A stretch of DNA of 64,000 nt from Alkalicella caledoniensis. GTDB lineage: Bacteria; Bacillota; Proteinivoracia; Proteinivoracales; Proteinivoracaceae. The notes under the pieces were generated by a model. That model saw only the letters and a list, made by a program, of their open reading frames with translations, was not told where the DNA came from and made no database searches. This document shows, one piece after another, positions 9,114-20,137 of the stretch (the first letter of the stretch is position 1; the number at the start of each line of letters is the position of its first letter). Location of the stretch: positions 1,984,001-2,048,000 of the forward strand of contig NZ_CP058559.1 in the NCBI RefSeq assembly GCF_014467015.1, written 5' to 3'. The position numbers were made by a program, and so were the translations under genes.

Positions 9114-10920
9114 TGTCAACCATTTTTGAAAATGTCCTAAAAAAGTCTTAACATAAGCACCAGATTTCTGGTGCTAAATTCTAAAAACACTTTTCAGAAT
9201 AGTTATGCTATTAACTTTTAATACTGCGACAATCTGTTGTTGTTCATGGCTTTCACAAAAGACAGTTGTAGCCGATGCTTCAGCTTCGGCTGACATTCAA
9301 AATGAACAGTATGATGGTAGGACTTTGTACTCGCCGTAAAACAAAAAGGCAGTGCCTAGAATGCACCTTGTTTTTGCGTAACTTTAATAAACCTAGTGAT
9401 TTCTAAGATTCTTGCTAAGCTATGTTGTTCCTATGTAATTGCTTTTTTAAATATCTTTCAAATGATGCCTGTTTCCATGGGTGACTCATTGGAGGAATAT
9501 ATTTTTTCTTAGGTTTCTCAGGAAGAGTTGCTAGATCAAATGCTTTTGAAGAGGGTTTATGATGTGGTAGCAACTCAAGCAAATAAACCTGTTCACCAAT
9601 ACAGCAGTAAATGTCCCCATCAAAGGCTTTAATGACCATAGCTGTAGTACCCTTACGGTAATGCACTGCAACTCCATAAGCATTAACAGGCAGATAATAC
9701 TCATTATGATATTTAATACAACTCCCATTATCAATTTTTCTAGAAGAAATTACCGCCAGTGTTAGATTGATTTTATCATTATCTGGTTGCGTTTCGAACA
9801 CAGATTTGATACTATCAATAGGTAAAGCGAATCGCTTGTTGAATTTTTTTATGTAGGAGTAAAGGAATTTGTTTGCCTCCTCAATTGAGGAGACACCTCT
9901 CAAGCGTAGCTCTACGACTAGGCGGGATTGAAGAGTGCCAAATACTCTTTCAACCCGCCCTTTTGCTTGTGGAACGCTAGATGTCTGAATGTCGATTCCT
10001 AACTGCTTACATGCATATCCGAACTGAGTAAATGTATCTTTTTCAACTGAAGCTTCTTTTTTCTTTTCGTATTTTCTTTTATACTCAAATACAGTGCGAT
10101 TATCTGTAAAAAACTGATAAGGGATTCCATAGTTAGTTAGGACCTGATTAAGAACATTGTAGTAGCCTTTTAACGTTTCCTGCTCATCAAAGTAAGCGCC
10201 TAACATTTGCCCTGTGGCATCATCGATTGCTACATGAAGGTGTGTTTTTATGCCACCAAACCACTCATGCATGGAAGCGTCCATTTGGAGCATTTCTCCA
10301 AAGTAAGCACACCTAGGACGCCTAGGATGAGAGTCCTCTATATCTAAAATGGAGCTTTGAATGACAGCTGCCTTCTTCATAGATTTAGTTTTAGCTTGAA
10401 GATCCTTTAGTTCTTTCTTCAATGCTTTCCTAGAAGATCGTGTTGCCATTGGCGAAAGGATGAACTCTTTCCTAAGAATAGAAGTAATGGTACCGACAGA
10501 TACTTTGATGTCTTCCATCTCATTAAGAAGCTCTGAAAAATGGGTTAGATTACAATCATAATACTTAGTGCGGTATAAGTCTAAGATTAACTTCTTGGTA
10601 TCTTCAGATAAGGTTATTGAAGGTTGCCTACCACGGTTTCCATGAATGAAAAAAGCTTTACCTTTTTCTTTATACCCTTTGATTAGCCTACTGATATGCC
10701 TAGGTGTACACCCGATTTTAAGGGCTGCAGTTTTCTTGTTGCCATTAGTTTCTACCAACTTTTTAATTATTTCATATTTCTGATTCTCATCCATAGTTAA
10801 TATCACCTTTCTCATCTTGTCCACCTCATTTTTATAGTCATGAGGGTATTATAATATATGAATCACTTTTAGGACATAATCTTTTGTGGTATAACTAGAC
10901 ATTATCATATATGAATCATA
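9114..10920 (-). mobile_element. Insertion sequence copy 2 (IS1202/ISNCY-like), 1807 bp
   Basis: Identical over its whole length to the element at 1684-3490, displaced by 7430 bp and in the same orientation. It has the same 24-bp imperfect inverted ends, but its own 27-bp target duplication, so it is an independent insertion and not part of a segmental duplication. It lies between the DUF2200 gene and the promoter of the asnS T-box leader. The two copies could act as direct repeats for recombination, deleting or amplifying the tetR-MFS-rph block between them. Confidence 0.92.
9415..10815 (-). CDS. IS1202/ISNCY-like transposase (copy 2)
   Basis: Same protein, residue for residue, as the transposase at 1985-3385: N-terminal helix-turn-helix, DDE catalytic core (LQMDASMHEWFG, QFFTDNRTVF, PQAKGRVERVFG) and basic tail. 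The start is again taken at the ATG after GAGGTG. The frame is intact. Its leftward transcription points away from asnS. Confidence 0.9.
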   Translation of the reverse strand: MRKVILTMDENQKYEIIKKLVETNGNKKTAALKIGCTPRHISRLIKGYKEKGKAFFIHGNRGRQPSITLSEDTKKLILDLYRTKYYDCNLTHFSELLNEMEDIKVSVGTITSILRKEFILSPMATRSSRKALKKELKDLQAKTKSMKKAAVIQSSILDIEDSHPRRPRCAYFGEMLQMDASMHEWFGGIKTHLHVAIDDATGQMLGAYFDEQETLKGYYNVLNQVLTNYGIPYQFFTDNRTVFEYKRKYEKKKEASVEKDTFTQFGYACKQLGIDIQTSSVPQAKGRVERVFGTLQSRLVVELRLRGVSSIEEANKFLYSYIKKFNKRFALPIDSIKSVFETQPDNDKINLTLAVISSRKIDNGSCIKYHNEYYLPVNAYGVAVHYRKGTTAMVIKAFDGDIYCCIGEQVYLLELLPHHKPSSKAFDLATLPEKPKKKYIPPMSHPWKQASFERYLKKQLHRNNIA

Positions 10921-11297: not shown

Positions 11298-12689
11298 ATG
11301 AAGTCTGTATATATCAAAGATATCTATAGAAATGTAGAAAAGTACGCAGACCAAACGGTGGTAATAGAAGGATGGATAAGAACACTTAGGGCATCAAAAG
11401 CATTTGGATTCATTGAAGTAAATGATGGAACTTTTTTTAACAATCTTCAGGTTGTGTTTGAAGAAAGTCTCGCAAATTTTAGTGAAATTGCAAAGCTTTC
11501 TATCAGTACATCTGTTAGGGTAGAAGGGAAGCTAGTGATTACACCTGACGCAAAGCAACCCTTTGAAATTAAAGCAATAAATATTACTGTGGAAGGTAAA
11601 TCAAGTAATGAGTACCCTCTACAGAAAAAAAGACATTCATTTGAATACCTAAGGGAGATTGCTCACCTAAGACCTAGAAGTAACACTTTCTCAGCAGTAT
11701 TTAGAATTAGATCCCTAGCAGCATTTGCTGTGCATCAGTTCTTTCAGGAAAAAGGATTTGTATATACACATACACCTATTATCACAGGAAGTGATGCAGA
11801 GGGAGCAGGTGAGATGTTTAGGATTACAACATTAGATCCTAAGAAGCCACCAGTGGATGAAAAAGGCGAAGTGGATTTTACTAAAGACTTCTTTGGAAAG
11901 GAAACTAGCTTAACAGTTAGTGGCCAATTGCAAGGAGAAGCCTATGCATTGGCATTTAGAAATATATACACATTCGGACCAACATTTAGGGCAGAAAACT
12001 CCCACACCGCTAGGCATGCCTCTGAGTTTTGGATGATTGAGCCTGAGATGGCATTTGCTGACTTGAATGATAACATGGAATTAGCTGAAGAAATGTTAAA
12101 GTATATCATCAATTATGTATTAGAGAATGCGCCGGAAGAAATGGATTTCTTTAACAAATTTGTTGATAAAGGTTTATTAGATAGATTAAAGGGCGTAGTA
12201 AGTTCAGATTTTGGTAGAGTGACTTATACAAAAGCCATAGAACTTCTTAAAGAATGTAAAGAAAACTTCGAATACCCTGTGGAATGGGGTTGTGACCTTC
12301 AAACAGAGCATGAAAGATATCTAACAGAAAAGATATTTAAAAAGCCTGTGTTTGTAACAGACTATCCTAAGGATATCAAAGCTTTCTATATGAAACTTAA
12401 TGAAGATGGTAAAACTGTGGCAGCTATGGATCTTTTGGTTCCAGGAGTTGGTGAAATTATTGGAGGAAGCCAGAGGGAAGATAAGCTAGAATTACTAGAA
12501 GAGAGAATGGATGCCATGGATCTTGATAAAGAAGAATACTGGTGGTATTTAGAACTTAGAAAATATGGTAGTACAAGACACTCAGGATATGGTTTAGGTT
12601 TTGAAAGGGCTATTATGTACTTAACGGGAATGGCTAATATTAGGGATGTTGTTTCTTTCCCGAGAACACCTAAATCAGCTGACTTCTAA
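11298..12689 (+). CDS. asnS: Asparaginyl-tRNA synthetase
   Basis: A 463-residue class IIb synthetase that charges tRNA-Asn using ATP. An N-terminal OB-fold (about residues 15-105, [24 protein letters not shown]) binds the anticodon. The catalytic domain has motif 2 in [16 protein letters not shown] and motif 3 in [16 protein letters not shown]. The [10 protein letters not shown] stretch is characteristic of AsnRS and AspRS, and the upstream T-box with an AAC specifier supports asparagine. Length is normal. The ATG follows AAGGAGG. It is transcribed from its own T-box promoter, which now lies beside an IS. Confidence 0.95.
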
Positions 12690-12785: not shown

Positions 12786-12959
12786 AAAAAAAGATTATAA
12801 AATCCCCTTAATATCCTTAAACGCTATATATAAACAGAAGATAAGCAGCCATAGAAAGATATGGTATAATTATATATTATAGAAATCATAACTAGTTAAA
12901 AAAGTAGATTCCACAAAGGTGACAAGAATATAAGCTTATGTAAAAAAGGATTGATAAAC

Positions 12960-15614
12960 ATGAAAAAAATAGTGATAGGTATATTGGCCCATGTTGATGC
13001 AGGTAAAACTACCTTATCAGAGGGGATGCTTTATCTCAGCGGTAAAATCGGAAAACTAGGGCGGGTTGACAACAAAAATGCGTATCTAGATACATATGAG
13101 CTGGAGAAGGAAAGGGGCATTACTATTTTCTCCAAGCAGGCCATACTGGAATTGGGTGAAACTCAGGTCACTCTGCTGGATACCCCAGGGCATGTGGATT
13201 TTTCTGCGGAAATGGAAAGGACCCTGCAGGTATTGGATTATGCTATTTTAGTAGTCAGTGCCGCTGATGGTGTACAGGGACATACAAAGACTCTGTGGAT
13301 GCTACTAGAGTTATATAATATTCCTGTTTTTATTTTTGTGAACAAAATGGACCAGCCTGGTGTAAGTAAGGATAATTTGATCAGGGAAATAAAAAATCAG
13401 CTCAGTGATGGATGTATTGACTTTGGGCAGGACCAAACAGAAAGTTTTTATGACCAACTGGCTATGTGTGATGAAGGTATGATGGGAACCTTCCTTGATA
13501 CGGGTACCATAGGAACTGTCCATATAAGAGAAAGCATTAAAGAGAGAAAAGTTTTTCCATGTACCTTCGGGTCAGCTTTAAAACTAGAAGGTATCGAGGA
13601 AATGATGAGATGTATAGTTGAGCATGTTATTACTCCTTCCTATCCCAGTGAGTTCGGAGCTAAGATATTTAAAGTTACACGGGACAATCAAGGGAACCGT
13701 CTTACACACTTAAAGGTTACCGGTGGCATCCTCAAAGTTAGGGATGTTTTAAAAAATGAGAATTGGGAAGAGAAAGTGAACCAGATCCGTCTTTATTCAG
13801 GAGAGAAGTACGAGGCAGTAACTGAAGTGGCAGGGGGAACGGTATGTGCAGTGACAGGACTGAGCCAGGCTGCACCGGGAGAGACCTTGGGGGTAGAGGA
13901 AGAATCCTATGCTCCAATACTTGAACCTGTACTCTCCTATCGAATGATACTGCCAGAGGGCTATGATCCAAGGGTTATGCTTCCAAGGCTGCGTCAGATT
14001 GAAGAAGAGGAACCTGAGCTAAACATCCTTTGGGATGAAAAATTACAGGAGATTCATATTCGAGTCATGGGGGAGGTGCAGCTTGAAATCCTGCAAAGTT
14101 TGATTCAAGAGCGTTTTGATGTTTATGTAGAATTCGATGAGGGAGGAATTATATACAAAGAGACCATTGCCAATACTGTAGAGGGTGTGGGGCATTTCGA
14201 ACCTTTGAGACACTATGCGGAGGTACACCTTTTTTTAGAACCTGGTGAACGGGGAAGTGGCTTAGTCTTTGGAAGTAACTGTAGCGAGGATATTCTCGGT
14301 AAAAGTTGGCAGAGACTTGTGTTACAGCATCTGAAGGAAAAAGCCCATATAGGTGTTCTAACGGGATCTGAAATAACAGATATGAAGATTACCCTAGTCA
14401 GCGGTAAGGCCCATAACAAACATACCGATGGCGGTGATTTTAGAGAGGCTACTTGGCGCGCTCTGCGACAAGGCTTAATGGAGGCACAATCGGTTTTATT
14501 GGAACCCTACTACTCTTTCAGGTTAGAACTGCCTGAAAATATGATAGGAAGGGCCATGACCGATATAGATAAGATGAAAGGAAGCAGTGAAATATTCCAA
14601 ACAGACGGTGAAATGGCGGTGCTTGTGGGAATTGCCCCCGTTAGTGGCATGAGAAACTATCAAAAGGAAGTAGTTGCTTACACTAAAGGTTATGGTAGAC
14701 TTTTTTGTAGCTTAAAGGGGTATGAAGCTTGTCTAAATAGCGAAGAAATCATAGAAAAAATAGGATATAATCCTGATAGAGATATAGAAAATCCCACTAG
14801 TTCTGTCTTCTGTGCTCAAGGAACAGGATTTATAGTCCAGTGGGATGAAGTTAAGAAATATATGCATTTAGAGGGCTATCTCCAAGAAGAAAGAAATCAT
14901 AGTGAAAAGTCGTTTCTTCATAAGGCTAGATATAAAGATGAGAACTTTATTAGCAATGATGAGATTGATCAAATTTTTGATAAAACTTTTTATGCTAATC
15001 AAGGGAGAAAATCAGTTTGGAAAAGAAAAAGGGAAGCAAGTGGAGGCTACCAAAGACCTGTCAGTCAAGTTATTGTTAGCAGGGAAGAGGAACCCAGGGA
15101 AAAATTTCTCCTCATTGACGGCTACAATATTATCTACGCATGGCCAGAACTAAAAGAGCTTGCTGATTACAATATGGATGCAGCAAGAACCAAGTTGATT
15201 GATACTTTAAGTAATTATCAGGGTATTGGAAAATGCCGAATCATCGTTGTTTTTGATGCATACCGCGTTCAGGGGCACCGTGAAGAGATAATGAAATACC
15301 ATAATATCCACTTAGTATATACAAAAGAGGCCCAGACGGCAGACCAGTATATTGAAAAGTTTACCCATGACAATAGTAAAAAGTATAAAATTACAGTGGC
15401 CACATCAGACGGTTTGCAGCAAATAATAGTCCGGGGACAAGGAGGACATTTACTATCAGCTAGGGAGCTAAAGGAAGAAATTCAGCGAGCAAATGAGAGA
15501 GTAACACAGGAAACACTAAAATTGCAGGAGTCTGATCCTAACTATCTAGGAGACACAATAACTGCGGATGCCAAAGAGAAAATGAAGGATATGGTTAAGG
15601 ATATGGAGCGTTAG
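12960..15614 (+). CDS. TetM/EF-G-like translational GTPase fused to a Rae1/YacP NYN nuclease domain
   Basis: An 884-residue protein in two parts. Residues 1 to about 660 are a ribosome-binding translational GTPase of the tetracycline ribosomal-protection type: G1 AHVDAGKTT (10-18), switch ERGITI, G3 DTPGHVDF, G4 NKMD, then EF-G-like domains II-V. At the domain IV loop it has HTDGGDFREATWRALRQGL, not the SPVSTPADFR loop of TetM. Residues about 714-875 match B. subtilis Rae1/YacP, a ribosome-associated endoribonuclease that cuts mRNA in the A site: LLIDGYNIIYAWPELKEL, IIVVFDAYRV, TKEAQTADQYIEK, VATSDGLQQ and SARELKEEI, including the expected acidic residues. A charged linker (about 660-712) joins the parts. 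Start is ATG 12960 after AAGGA. The AraC-type regulator starts 24 bp downstream. Whether it gives tetracycline resistance is uncertain. Confidence 0.88.
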   Translation: MKKIVIGILAHVDAGKTTLSEGMLYLSGKIGKLGRVDNKNAYLDTYELEKERGITIFSKQAILELGETQVTLLDTPGHVDFSAEMERTLQVLDYAILVVSAADGVQGHTKTLWMLLELYNIPVFIFVNKMDQPGVSKDNLIREIKNQLSDGCIDFGQDQTESFYDQLAMCDEGMMGTFLDTGTIGTVHIRESIKERKVFPCTFGSALKLEGIEEMMRCIVEHVITPSYPSEFGAKIFKVTRDNQGNRLTHLKVTGGILKVRDVLKNENWEEKVNQIRLYSGEKYEAVTEVAGGTVCAVTGLSQAAPGETLGVEEESYAPILEPVLSYRMILPEGYDPRVMLPRLRQIEEEEPELNILWDEKLQEIHIRVMGEVQLEILQSLIQERFDVYVEFDEGGIIYKETIANTVEGVGHFEPLRHYAEVHLFLEPGERGSGLVFGSNCSEDILGKSWQRLVLQHLKEKAHIGVLTGSEITDMKITLVSGKAHNKHTDGGDFREATWRALRQGLMEAQSVLLEPYYSFRLELPENMIGRAMTDIDKMKGSSEIFQTDGEMAVLVGIAPVSGMRNYQKEVVAYTKGYGRLFCSLKGYEACLNSEEIIEKIGYNPDRDIENPTSSVFCAQGTGFIVQWDEVKKYMHLEGYLQEERNHSEKSFLHKARYKDENFISNDEIDQIFDKTFYANQGRKSVWKRKREASGGYQRPVSQVIVSREEEPREKFLLIDGYNIIYAWPELKELADYNMDAARTKLIDTLSNYQGIGKCRIIVVFDAYRVQGHREEIMKYHNIHLVYTKEAQTADQYIEKFTHDNSKKYKITVATSDGLQQIIVRGQGGHLLSARELKEEIQRANERVTQETLKLQESDPNYLGDTITADAKEKMKDMVKDMER

Positions 15615-15638: not shown

Positions 15639-16544
15639 ATGGATTATACAAATTTAATTCAAAAAACCATAGACTATATTGATGATAATATTTTTGAAGA
15701 AATAACAGTAGAGAATCTAGCAAAAATAGCAGGATTCTCTACATATCATTACTATAAACTATTTAGAAATTATGTAGGGGTTCCCATAAAGGAATATGTA
15801 ACAAGACGAAGGCTCCAGTACGCACTTTATGAACTTAGCCAAGGTAAGAAGATAATAGATATAGCTATGACATATGGCTTTGAAACCCATGCAGGATTTA
15901 CCAAGGCCTTCAAAAAAACCTTTGGATATCCCCCAAATTTTTATAGAATACATGCTCCTATTGGTATCCCCCAGAGAGTTAATTTGAAGAGGCTTAAGGA
16001 CAGCAAGGCTGGTGGCATTGTAATGCAACCTAAAATAACGTGCCGAGATGGCTTTAAATTGGTTGGTTATGAGTTTAAAACAACTTTAAATAACAATGCT
16101 CATTGTAGGGATATTCCAGCTTTTTTACATAGATTTGAAACAGAAGATAAAGAAATCAAACTATATGAGACACAGAATCCCCCTAAGCATGGAGAATATG
16201 GAATATGCACAAGTACTAACTTAGAGAAAGATGAGTTTTCATATATTTTAGGTGTAGAAGTGACTAATTTTGATAGTGCCTTAGAGGAAATGTATACTTT
16301 AGATGTCTTGCCAGCAACCTACGCAGTATTTACATCACCAGATGTATCAAGTGCTGATTTTGAGAAATCTGTAATAGGTACATGGCAATATATACTTGAA
16401 GAGTGGTTCCCAAACTCACCCTATGAGATTGATGATAGCCAGCCAGACTTTGAGTTTTACAACGAAAGATGTCACCCATGGGTTTATGAAAAGGTGCACA
16501 TGTATATCTACATACCCGTGAAAATAAAAAGTCGTAACCGTTAG
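15639..16544 (+). CDS. AraC-family regulator with GyrI-like effector domain
   Basis: A 301-residue regulator. The first 110 residues hold two AraC helix-turn-helix units (VENLAKIAGFSTYHYYKLFRN and IIDIAMTYGFETHAGFTKAF), and residues about 130-298 form a GyrI/Rob-type ligand-binding domain (FKLVGYEFKT, LPATYAVFTSP, PYEIDDSQPDFEFY, VHMYIYIPV). Such proteins bind hydrophobic drugs and activate efflux genes. It sits 24 bp after the GTPase-nuclease gene with a GGGGGGG-rich ribosome binding site, so the two may be co-transcribed. It is followed by a terminator and then an ABC exporter, a plausible target. No operator was identified. Confidence 0.9.
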   Translation: MDYTNLIQKTIDYIDDNIFEEITVENLAKIAGFSTYHYYKLFRNYVGVPIKEYVTRRRLQYALYELSQGKKIIDIAMTYGFETHAGFTKAFKKTFGYPPNFYRIHAPIGIPQRVNLKRLKDSKAGGIVMQPKITCRDGFKLVGYEFKTTLNNNAHCRDIPAFLHRFETEDKEIKLYETQNPPKHGEYGICTSTNLEKDEFSYILGVEVTNFDSALEEMYTLDVLPATYAVFTSPDVSSADFEKSVIGTWQYILEEWFPNSPYEIDDSQPDFEFYNERCHPWVYEKVHMYIYIPVKIKSRNR

Positions 16545-16558
16545 GTTTCGACTTTTTT
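16527..16558 (+). terminator. Terminator at the end of the araC-type gene
   Basis: AAAAGTCG paired with CGACTTTT, with inner ACC/GGT, followed by further T. It overlaps the last codons of the gene. Confidence 0.82.
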
Positions 16559-16766
16559 AGTACTCAAAAAAGGATGATTTTCCTGAAAGTATGGGATTTT
16601 AGATCAGAAAAGTCATTTTTAAATGACAGTGACTTTGCCTGAAAGCAACCTGAAGGTGGAAAAACATAACAAATTAGGATAAGAAAATTAAATTCAGCAA
16701 TGATACTATGTATTTGATAACAAAAGGTAATAGATTCAAAGTCTATACCACGAGAGGGGACAGTGT

Positions 16767-18503
16767 ATGAATAAAAAGAAAAGCAGTATTTCTGCTACTG
16801 CTAGATGGTTTTGGAAATATGGCAAGGGTAGATATTTTCATGTGCTAGGAATTATTATGTGTATTGGGTTAATTACAGGTGGTAACATTCTTCGAGCAAG
16901 TGTTTTAGATAAGTTAATTACAGTATCCTTATTAAGGGACACAGAACAACTATTAGTTATAATAGTTACGCTAATTGCAATAGTTGTGGTGGGGTTATTG
17001 GCAAACTCTTTTCTAGCTCTATTTAAAACTCACTTCGGAGCAATAACTGCTGCTAATATTAGGAAGGATTTTTTTAGTAGTTTGCTTAAAATGCCAGTGT
17101 CTAAAATAGAATCACATTCATCAGGGGCTATAATCTCTGTATATAATAATGAACTAAATAAGATTATTAGTTTAATTTCAGGTAAATTTGTAGACGCTTT
17201 GCTTCAACCTATAATGTTTATTGGGGTTTCTGTTTATATGTTGATAATAAACTGGAAGCTTTATCTCATATGCTATGCATTACTGCCCTTGGTAGTAATG
17301 ATAATAAACAAGTTGTCAAAGAAAAGTGCTTCCTATGCCACTAAGTATTATGAGAAGATTGGATATGCAAATGAACTATCCAAAGAGTGTATTGATGGAA
17401 TAACAGAGATAAAGACTTTTAATCTAGAGAGCTCTGTTATTGAACGGTGCAAGAATGCATTTGATGATGTTCTGTTTTACATTCTTAAGTCTGAGAAGTA
17501 TGATGCAATATCCCTTCCATTTTGGCTATTGAATTTTCAATTGCCGAAGATCATGTGTATTTTGTTTGGTGGATTCCTTGCGCTAAATGGGGAAATGACT
17601 GTAGGAGAGCTGGTAGCATATGTCCAACTAACTCTATATGTTTCTCAACCAGCGTCAGCAGTAGTAGATTTTATAGATTCATTAAGACAAGGTAGTGTAG
17701 CATTAAAAGGAATTAGAGGGATAATGGATGTAGAAGAGTTTACAGAAATTCAAATTAAGCCTATAGGGAAAACAAAGCAGGAGGCAATATCCTTTAATAA
17801 TGTTACCTTTGCCTACGGAGATAACACAGTTTTAAAGAATTGTAACTTCACCATCAAAAGGAATGGGTTTAATGTATTGGCAGGGGCCAGTGGCCAAGGA
17901 AAAAGTACTATATTATCTTTAATTTGTGGGTTGTATTCTGTGACAAGTGGAGAGATAAAGATAGCAGAAGAATATATTGAGAAAGGCATTGCTTACGTAT
18001 CTCAGGATAATGTGTTATTTCCAGGCACCATAGCTGAAAACATAGCATTTGGCATAGAAAATCCTAGTTTTTCGGAAATTCAAGAGGCTGCTATAGCAGC
18101 CAAGGCCCATGACTTCATATGCCAACTCCCAAAATCTTACAATACTCCTGTTGGAGAGCGTGGGCAGATTCTATCGGGAGGTCAGCGTCAGCGGATTGCA
18201 ATTGCTAGAGCATTTTTTAGAAAAAGCCCATTAATTTTAATGGATGAGCCCACATCAGCAATAGATACTGAGACTGAGGAGCAAATTGTAAAAATGCTAC
18301 TGAGTCTCTCTAAGGAATCTACTTTATTAGTTTCCTCCCATCGATTATCAACTATTAAAAAAGCAGATTGTATATATGTTCTTCAGGGAGCTAGTATTGT
18401 AGAGTGCGGAACCCATGAAGACTTGTGGAGTAATAATAAAGGTGTTTATCATAGTTTATATAGAAAACAAATAGAAGTAGACAGTGGTGGGGTGGCAGTA
18501 TGA
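16767..18503 (+). CDS. ABC exporter subunit (TM + ATPase), first of a pair
   Basis: A 578-residue half-transporter. Residues about 20-310 hold six membrane helices; the ATPase follows with Walker A GASGQGKST, signature LSGGQRQR, Walker B LILMDEPTSAID and H-loop SSHRLST. These are all consensus, so this ATPase site should be catalytic. Its stop overlaps the next ABC gene by 4 bp (ATGA), the mark of a translationally coupled heterodimer like LmrCD or BmrCD. The substrate is probably a drug, lipid or peptide. The AraC/GyrI-like regulator upstream may control it. The 220 bp before the gene hold no other coding frame. Confidence 0.9.
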   Translation: MNKKKSSISATARWFWKYGKGRYFHVLGIIMCIGLITGGNILRASVLDKLITVSLLRDTEQLLVIIVTLIAIVVVGLLANSFLALFKTHFGAITAANIRKDFFSSLLKMPVSKIESHSSGAIISVYNNELNKIISLISGKFVDALLQPIMFIGVSVYMLIINWKLYLICYALLPLVVMIINKLSKKSASYATKYYEKIGYANELSKECIDGITEIKTFNLESSVIERCKNAFDDVLFYILKSEKYDAISLPFWLLNFQLPKIMCILFGGFLALNGEMTVGELVAYVQLTLYVSQPASAVVDFIDSLRQGSVALKGIRGIMDVEEFTEIQIKPIGKTKQEAISFNNVTFAYGDNTVLKNCNFTIKRNGFNVLAGASGQGKSTILSLICGLYSVTSGEIKIAEEYIEKGIAYVSQDNVLFPGTIAENIAFGIENPSFSEIQEAAIAAKAHDFICQLPKSYNTPVGERGQILSGGQRQRIAIARAFFRKSPLILMDEPTSAIDTETEEQIVKMLLSLSKESTLLVSSHRLSTIKKADCIYVLQGASIVECGTHEDLWSNNKGVYHSLYRKQIEVDSGGVAV

Positions 18504-20137
18504 AAAATGAATTCGTAAATGATGGAAAAAAGATCTTTAACTTGCTAGGAAATGAAAAGTGGAAATATTTATTATCAGTTATTATTTGTGCAATTGTAGT
18601 TCCAGCCTTTGACCTAGCACTACCTTGGGTAACGAAATGGATGATCAATGCTGTGGAAATGGGAAGTAAAGAGCTTTTAATACAAGGTTTTTTAACTATG
18701 ATAATAATATTTATTTTATACAGTATTCTGGTGCCAATCACTGGCTATCATTACGAAGGAAGAAGCCATAAGCCTTTGCTAGGTGTAAGGCTAAGGCTCT
18801 TAAAACATATTATAGGGATGCCCTTTAATTTCTTTTCTAAACAACATAGTGGGGAATTAATGTCTAGGTTAACAGGGGATATAGACGAGCTGTTTGATTT
18901 TTATAAAGAGCAAACCTATGATATTATTTCGATTTTATTTAAGGGTATAGGGGCTCTAGCTATGTTATTTATACTAGATATACGGATAGCAGCACCTGTT
19001 ATAATATTAGGAATCATATCTGCTGTAAGCAGAAGCTATGGGGTAAAGGCCTTAAAAGAAAATAGTGATGATGTACGTAAGCTCTCAGGAGAAGCGAATA
19101 GTCTAGTTAGTGATTCCTTAGGAGGTATTAAGGTAGTAAAGGCATTTAAATTTGAGGAATTCTTAAATAGAGACTTCACTTCTATTATGGATAGAGTAAC
19201 CCGCAAGGCCTATGATAGAAATATTATAGAAATAAAAAGAAATGCACTAAGCTATATAATTGGTAGTTTGAATTTTCTTGGAGTTCTGTGTATTGGAGCA
19301 TATATGATATCCAAGGGGACCTTAGACGTTGGGTCTGTATTCGCAGCCATAATGCTACAAGAAGGTATTATAGAGATGTTTGTGGCCTTTGGAACCTATG
19401 GTTTTGGAATAAAGATACAAATAGCAAAATCTGCCCGCATATTTGAACTATTCCAGGAGAAACAAGAGAGACAAGGGAAGTATGAGGGTTCAGGCTCTCA
19501 TATATGTGGAGATGAGTTAATTGCCATTGAGGAGGGCAGCTTTTCATATAATGATAGAGAGGCAGTGTTTACCAGACTCAATATAAGGATTATGAGAAAT
19601 GAGCTGGTCATATTGGAAGGGCAAAGTGGCACTGGTAAATCAACTCTATCTAAAATATTAACAGGACTAATGCCGCTAGAATCTGGAAATATCCTTTGGT
19701 GTGGAAAAAATGCTAACATGTCAATTCTACGGAATAATGTAGCATATGTTCCACAGGAACCCTACCTTTTCAAGGGATCAATATTGGATAATTTAAGGAT
19801 TGGTAATCCAAAAGCTACAATGGACGAAATTTATAAAGCTACTAAAAAGGCATGTGCCCATGATTTTATAGTAAGCCAACCCCAAGGGTACAACACTGTA
19901 ATAGGAGAACGTGGTCTTACCCTATCAGGAGGGCAAAGACAAAGAATTGCCATAGCCAGAGCCTTACTAAAGGAGGCATCTATCCTACTTATAGATGAAG
20001 GCACATCTGCTATCGACTCAGAAATAGAAAACATTTTGTTAGACAATTTAATAAGTGAAGTAGATAAGAGGACGGTAATTTTTGTTGCCCATGGTCCAAC
20101 AATCGCTAAACGAGCTAATAGAGTTATAGAAATATAA
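18500..20137 (+). CDS. ABC exporter subunit, second of the pair, C-terminally clipped
   Basis: A 545-residue partner of the preceding subunit, with six membrane helices (about 20-300) and an ATPase with Walker A GQSGTGKST, signature LSGGQRQR and Walker B ILLIDEGTSAID. The usual proline after the catalytic Glu is replaced by Gly, and the H-loop reads VAHGPTIA. The protein ends at RVIEI, where family members normally go on for about 30-40 residues (D-G-x-I-x-E-x-G-x-H). An acetyltransferase fragment starts in the overlapping TAATG, suggesting that a deletion removed the 3' end of this gene together with the front of the next one. It may still function, as the nucleotide-binding motifs are present. 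Confidence 0.87.
   Translation: MKNEFVNDGKKIFNLLGNEKWKYLLSVIICAIVVPAFDLALPWVTKWMINAVEMGSKELLIQGFLTMIIIFILYSILVPITGYHYEGRSHKPLLGVRLRLLKHIIGMPFNFFSKQHSGELMSRLTGDIDELFDFYKEQTYDIISILFKGIGALAMLFILDIRIAAPVIILGIISAVSRSYGVKALKENSDDVRKLSGEANSLVSDSLGGIKVVKAFKFEEFLNRDFTSIMDRVTRKAYDRNIIEIKRNALSYIIGSLNFLGVLCIGAYMISKGTLDVGSVFAAIMLQEGIIEMFVAFGTYGFGIKIQIAKSARIFELFQEKQERQGKYEGSGSHICGDELIAIEEGSFSYNDREAVFTRLNIRIMRNELVILEGQSGTGKSTLSKILTGLMPLESGNILWCGKNANMSILRNNVAYVPQEPYLFKGSILDNLRIGNPKATMDEIYKATKKACAHDFIVSQPQGYNTVIGERGLTLSGGQRQRIAIARALLKEASILLIDEGTSAIDSEIENILLDNLISEVDKRTVIFVAHGPTIAKRANRVIEI

Follow-up and report, generated by a model that had tools for sequence, protein, structure and literature searches.

The question raised by this locus is whether one bacterial gene joins a TetM-like translational GTPase to a nuclease of the Rae1/YacP type, and if so, whether its product serves ribosome rescue or a response to antibiotics. 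Both possibilities had been put forward in the original prediction, which was made from the letters of a 64,000-nt window (the whole stretch of DNA that was analyzed) and envisaged a factor that binds stalled ribosomes, opens the A site with GTP and then cleaves the mRNA. The reading frame turned out to be uninterrupted from TTG 12951 or ATG 12960 to the stop codon at 15612–15614, with zero internal stops. The TTG codon had been called mechanically, and ATG 12960 is the better and likely start because the start region AAGGATTTGAAATAGATnATGAAAAA is conserved among relatives. All six Pfam domains were found above their gathering scores in this one frame, namely GTP_EFTU (5e-51), EF-G_D2, EFG_III, EFG_IV (8e-19), EFG_C (1e-16) and NYN_YacP (7e-55; 185.9 bits versus a cut-off of 24.6). 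A domain search had been proposed as a first check, and its outcome confirms that both types of domain are encoded in a single chain. A recent artefact or a frameshifted gene was rejected, as the length is similar in most loci. The features are listed in Table 1.

Table 1. Features of the fusion gene and its upstream region (window positions)
Feature	Position	Strand	Evidence
Extended -10 (TGG-TATAAT) of the gene's own promoter, probable	12865..12870	+	Sequence and upstream alignment (inference)
Translational GTPase-linker-NYN_YacP (Rae1) fusion gene, complete, 884 aa	12960..15614	+	ORF, Pfam, start-region alignment
G domain; AHVDAGKT, DTPGHVDF and NKMD all present	12969..13628	+	Pfam GTP_EFTU, alignment
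EF-G-like domains II and III	13656..14135	+	Pfam EF-G_D2, EFG_III
Domain IV (A-site domain)	14148..14489	+	Pfam EFG_IV
Domain IV tip loop AHNKHTDGGDFR, where Tet has YYSPVSTPADFR	14409..14444	+	Alignment
Domain V	14493..14732	+	Pfam EFG_C
Family-specific extension past domain V, YN..D..NPTSSVFC..G.GF.V.W..V..MH; also in GTPase-only relatives	14733..14885	+	Alignment, conservation
Disordered leash, pLDDT mostly <50	14886..15095	+	AlphaFold model, conservation
NYN_YacP nuclease domain (Rae1 fold)	15108..15596	+	Pfam, PDB 5mq8/5mq9, structure match
Active-site Asp720 (= Rae1 D7)	15117..15119	+	Alignment
Other active-site acids: Asp766, Asp795, Asp817	15255; 15342; 15408	+	Alignment

The closest solved chain to the C-terminus was Rae1 of Bacillus subtilis (E 1.5e-26), which is described in the literature as a ribosomal A-site mRNA endonuclease and has S1025 as a known substrate. 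At the positions of Rae1 D7, N10, D53, D81, E85 and D104, 92 of 92 fused homologues carried the identical residue, so that the nuclease motifs are indeed intact. When the domain was folded alone, AlphaFold yielded a pLDDT of 86, and the model matched Rae1 (5mq9) with a Z score of 20.2 and 1.9 A over 134 residues, while the next match other than Rae1 reached a Z score of 9.3. The acidic site, whose absence from a predicted structure had been named in advance as counter-evidence, is present. The fold is the same as in B. subtilis Rae1/YacP (PDB 5mq8, 5mq9) and all catalytic acids are shared. In contrast, Rae1 is a stand-alone protein of about 170 aa that is encoded after rlmB and carries a basic C-terminal tail, whereas the nuclease analyzed here is fused, is located elsewhere in the genome and has lost the tail.

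Over the last 20 residues, the mean net charge was -1.1 for fused nucleases versus +2.2 for stand-alone Rae1, which often ends in a basic LEKWRR-type tail; this tail is weak or absent in some members, some of the window's own class among them, and is therefore common rather than universal or strictly defining. The fused tails are neutral to acidic. In B. subtilis, loss of rae1 relieves the swarming defect that an efp deletion causes, and the rae1 suppressor mutations regarded as loss of function include R166P (PMC6613710); judged by residue number, this position should lie within the basic tail. Because fused nucleases dispense with the tail and R166P is treated as loss of function, the tail may help free Rae1 to dock on ribosomes, and in the fused forms this task may have passed to the GTPase. 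This reading is a lead, as a single fusion event underlies the comparison.

In the full-length AlphaFold model both parts were predicted well (mean pLDDT 78), and they are separated by a leash of about 70 residues (roughly residues 643–712) between the family extension and the nuclease. As the pLDDT of the leash is mostly below 50, the model leaves the position of the nuclease relative to the GTPase unfixed. Within the leash, residues 667–688 (about 14958–15023) form a short conserved motif, DEIDQI...TFYANQG.KS.WK, which is a possible binding motif. The conservation of domain IV was 0.84, the highest in the fusion family, versus 0.70–0.73 for the other GTPase domains, and therefore, A-site contact by this domain is probably the core function of the family. 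For the relatives of the EF-G/TetM type, the placement of domain IV in the A site is established in the literature.

Next to be considered is the nature of the GTPase part. The closest solved chains were TetO and TetM (E about 1e-77 to 1e-74, about 31% identity), and the five-domain order and intact G motifs are shared with TetM, TetO, TetS, TetQ and OtrA at about 27–32% identity. However, the fusion protein differs from all of these in its domain IV tip, the extension after domain V, its separate clade and the presence of a nuclease. The tip is YYSPVSTPADFR in TetM, FVGPISTAADFR in OtrA and AHNKHTDGGDFR in the fusion protein, and the latter is strongly conserved in the family, from which the Tet loop SPVSTPADFR (P(V/I)ST.ADFR) is absent. 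In Tet proteins, this loop forms the contact to the drug site. With the NCBIfam model tet_protect, 424–427 bits were obtained at a curated cut-off of 775, versus 880 for a Tet(M) control; this shortfall is supporting evidence that is not decisive alone, because the divergent OtrA also misses the cut-off with 668 bits. A quick tree united TetM/O/S/Q with OtrA in one clade (support 99), from which a branch with a support of 95 separated the fusion family. Within this family, the fused forms were set apart from the adjacent GTPase-only forms at a support of only 70; the rooting is unsure, since the single EF-G outgroup is a long branch. The sequence comparisons indicate that the GTPase part is not a TETRACYCLINE protein, and that the family belongs to a clade that is sister to the known Tet proteins and is not derived from TetM. 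The predicted distinction from classic tetracycline resistance is therefore upheld by the tree placement, the tet_protect score and the different tip. The original prediction had also described the drug loop of TetM as replaced; it is true that AHNKHTDGGDFR stands in place of YYSPVSTPADFR, but the wording is misleading because this lineage and the Tet proteins are sisters.

The fusion protein shares its fold with EF-G, and the His in the family's tip aligns with the His of YHDVDS in EF-G. In the structure comparison, EF-G was the best match of the GTPase part (Z about 37, with a large rmsd from domain angles). Unlike true EF-G, the fusion protein remained far below the model cut-off (290 bits versus 659 for the NCBIfam EF-G model), and the window genome encodes two other full-length proteins of the EF-G type.

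A scan with one genome per species revealed at least 573 related loci. Among the best 80 of these, the nuclease lay within the same gene in 80 of 80; a few of these genes were truncated at the end of a contig or had a disrupted frame. The hosts of these 80 include Clostridium, Desulfosporosinus, Anaerocolumna, Blautia, Eisenbergiella, Limnochordia and others. Among the best 80 loci, the gene is chromosomal and spread widely over both environmental and gut species. The NCBI name for such a protein is "translation factor GTPase family protein". Atkinson et al. (2015, BMC Genomics 16:78, PMC4342817) report a Tet-NYN fusion in ten clostridial species, count the fusions inside the Tet subfamily and tentatively link them to antibiotic resistance. 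Architecture and host group are the same, and the proteins described there almost certainly belong to the same family, so the fusion itself is prior art and not a new discovery. In contrast to the placement given there, the GTPase was found outside the known Tet clade, and the family replaces stand-alone yacP. New are this replacement, the separation from the Tet proteins, the lost tail and the existence of nuclease-free relatives in Bacilli.

The replacement of yacP was evident from the distribution of NYN_YacP domains. The window genome contains one such domain, the fused copy, which was also the sole copy in 40 of 42 fused genomes. Among 249 genomes sampled across the phylum, another YacP was found in 0 of 16 fused genomes versus 122 of 233 without the fusion (Fisher p 2e-5; 7e-4 by genus), but these p-values overstate independence because the fused clade goes back to essentially a single event that was followed by transfers. 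The other 26 of the 42 are named fused genomes, of which 24 had only the fused copy. Stand-alone yacP usually lies between rlmB and the sigma-factor gene sigH. In the window genome this slot comprises only about 208 bp and yacP is absent, and the slot lacks yacP in nine fused genomes including this one, while three genomes of the same family (G001, G002 and G004) retain it there. An empty slot alone does not prove replacement, because many clostridia lack any Rae1. Clostridium carboxidivorans and Acetivibrio alkalicellulosi contain both forms, and they look like intermediate states of the replacement, as native yacP remains in its slot.

For the window genome, the route of this exchange can be proposed. 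Its fusion gene was nearest to that of Clostridium punense, is absent from four relatives of the same family and has a G+C content of 0.43–0.44 versus about 0.35 in the flanks. The gene was therefore probably acquired, and native yacP was probably lost thereafter. In the NYN tree, 26 of 27 fused nucleases fell into one clade, indicating that the join probably happened once.

The GTPase also exists without the nuclease. In 19 of 200 Bacilli genomes (fused forms: 0) a protein of about 650 aa was found that stops just past the extra C-terminal element of the family, and stand-alone YacP was present in 195 of the 200. These GTPase-only homologues (within L144–L164) share the tip motif and the extension after domain V and are tree neighbors of the fused clade, but they lack the nuclease, and YacP is encoded elsewhere in the genome. 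The unfused form and the near-universal free YacP of Bacilli suggest that the nuclease was probably added to a pre-existing GTPase.

Taken together, we propose, with a probability of roughly 0.6, that the fusion protein is the cell's Rae1, which is docked on ribosomes by its GTPase and cuts mRNA on stalled ribosomes. The GTPase, being of the EF-G/TetM type, would dock at the factor site of ribosomes with a free or paused A site, and its domain IV would reach the decoding center, while the nuclease would hang off its C-terminus by the flexible leash. After GTP hydrolysis the GTPase would leave or change its shape, and the tethered nuclease could move into the A site and cleave the mRNA there. 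The complex, now truncated, would be accessible to rescue by tmRNA and to decay of the mRNA. The GTPase would thus supply recruitment to the ribosome and perhaps timing, which stand-alone Rae1 manages by itself. We infer the binding to ribosomes, the cleavage in the A site, the sequence of these steps and their coupling to GTP. As domain IV and the nuclease cannot share one A site, any coupling would have to be sequential or occur on another ribosome. A more specific form of the proposal, which we regard as conceivable but doubtful, is that GTP hydrolysis on the stalled ribosome makes domain IV give up the A site to the tethered nuclease, making the protein a GTP-steered rescue factor in one chain that replaces free Rae1 across many clostridia.

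The long and disordered leash would also fit a looser arrangement, in which the GTPase is an independent translation factor with a job of its own and the Rae1 domain is attached for co-expression only. In most genomes YacP acts without this GTPase, and in the Bacilli, where 19 of 200 genomes have the GTPase-only form, stand-alone YacP is nearly universal, so that the co-occurrence of the two is uninformative. We consider such a purely formal union rather unlikely, as the join has been retained since one old event, the Rae1 tail was lost in the fused forms and a conserved motif lies within the leash.

Alternatively, the GTPase might dislodge tetracycline or another A-site antibiotic as TetM does, and the nuclease would clear the mRNA from drug-stalled ribosomes. 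The nearest solved homologues and the sister relationship to the ribosomal protection proteins are in agreement with this view, as are a drug-sensing type of regulator and two ABC exporters downstream in this window, and it is close to what Atkinson et al. (2015, PMC4342817) suggest. Nevertheless, the family lacks the conserved Tet tip, the tet_protect score is far too low, the gene is chromosomal in a wide range of environmental and gut species, and its pattern follows the loss of yacP instead. The promoter appears ordinary, several relatives having a -35 TTGTCA and an extended -10 in common, no leader peptide of the Tet-like type was seen upstream, and no conserved resistance-gene neighbors were seen across 84 loci. 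Since stand-alone yacP is replaced and these hallmarks of drug response were not seen, the evidence points to a housekeeping role as Rae1, and the drug-response system was the weaker half of the original interpretation, which otherwise leads in the right direction; we deem it improbable that the protein is such a system. That rRNA or tRNA is the substrate of the nuclease, in maturation or in the turnover of faulty ribosomes, is most improbable, because although YacP-like NYN domains were first proposed for rRNA and tRNA maturation (Anantharaman and Aravind 2006, as cited in PMC4342817), an A-site mRNA endonuclease, Rae1, is closest by sequence and fold.

If the proposed role as a GTPase-docked Rae1 is correct, hundreds of species, clostridial ones and gut inhabitants, would use this form of the enzyme, and a family that has been placed among the tetracycline-resistance proteins would really belong to mRNA quality control. 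To our knowledge, no translational GTPase has been demonstrated to bring a nuclease of its own. The fusion would also offer a handle on how Rae1 finds paused ribosomes, because it suggests which partner could do so; the GTPase-only homologue of Bacilli, apparently unstudied, is a possible partner of free Rae1. A literature search for this 650-aa family found no paper.

Several further observations concern the surroundings and the relatives of the gene. A resistance island was rejected, as conserved neighbors were absent in the 84 loci and a Tet-like leader peptide was absent upstream, and a phage or defense gene was likewise rejected, as PADLOC gave no match and no relatives were found in viral contigs. 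Directly after the fusion gene, 15639–20137 (+) encodes an AraC-type regulator with a GyrI-like/Cass2 small-molecule-binding domain and then two ABC exporter genes, likely a multidrug export operon; these genes are not a conserved neighbor of the fusion family. No regulatory RNA was found ahead of the fusion gene, the only T-box leader (RF00230; 11002–11244, +) lying directly upstream of a gene for an asparaginyl-type class II tRNA synthetase (11298–12689). The region is adjoined by a transposase-like ORF of 469 aa with a winged helix-turn-helix start (9415–10824, -). The loci L144–L146 and L148–L164 represent the nuclease-free 650-aa GTPase family, with the tip motif and the C-terminal extension, in Bacilli and Paenibacilli. 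In genome G254, a very divergent fused protein (L132/L147) was found whose nuclease is not clearly within the fused clade, possibly reflecting a second fusion or a long-branch placement.
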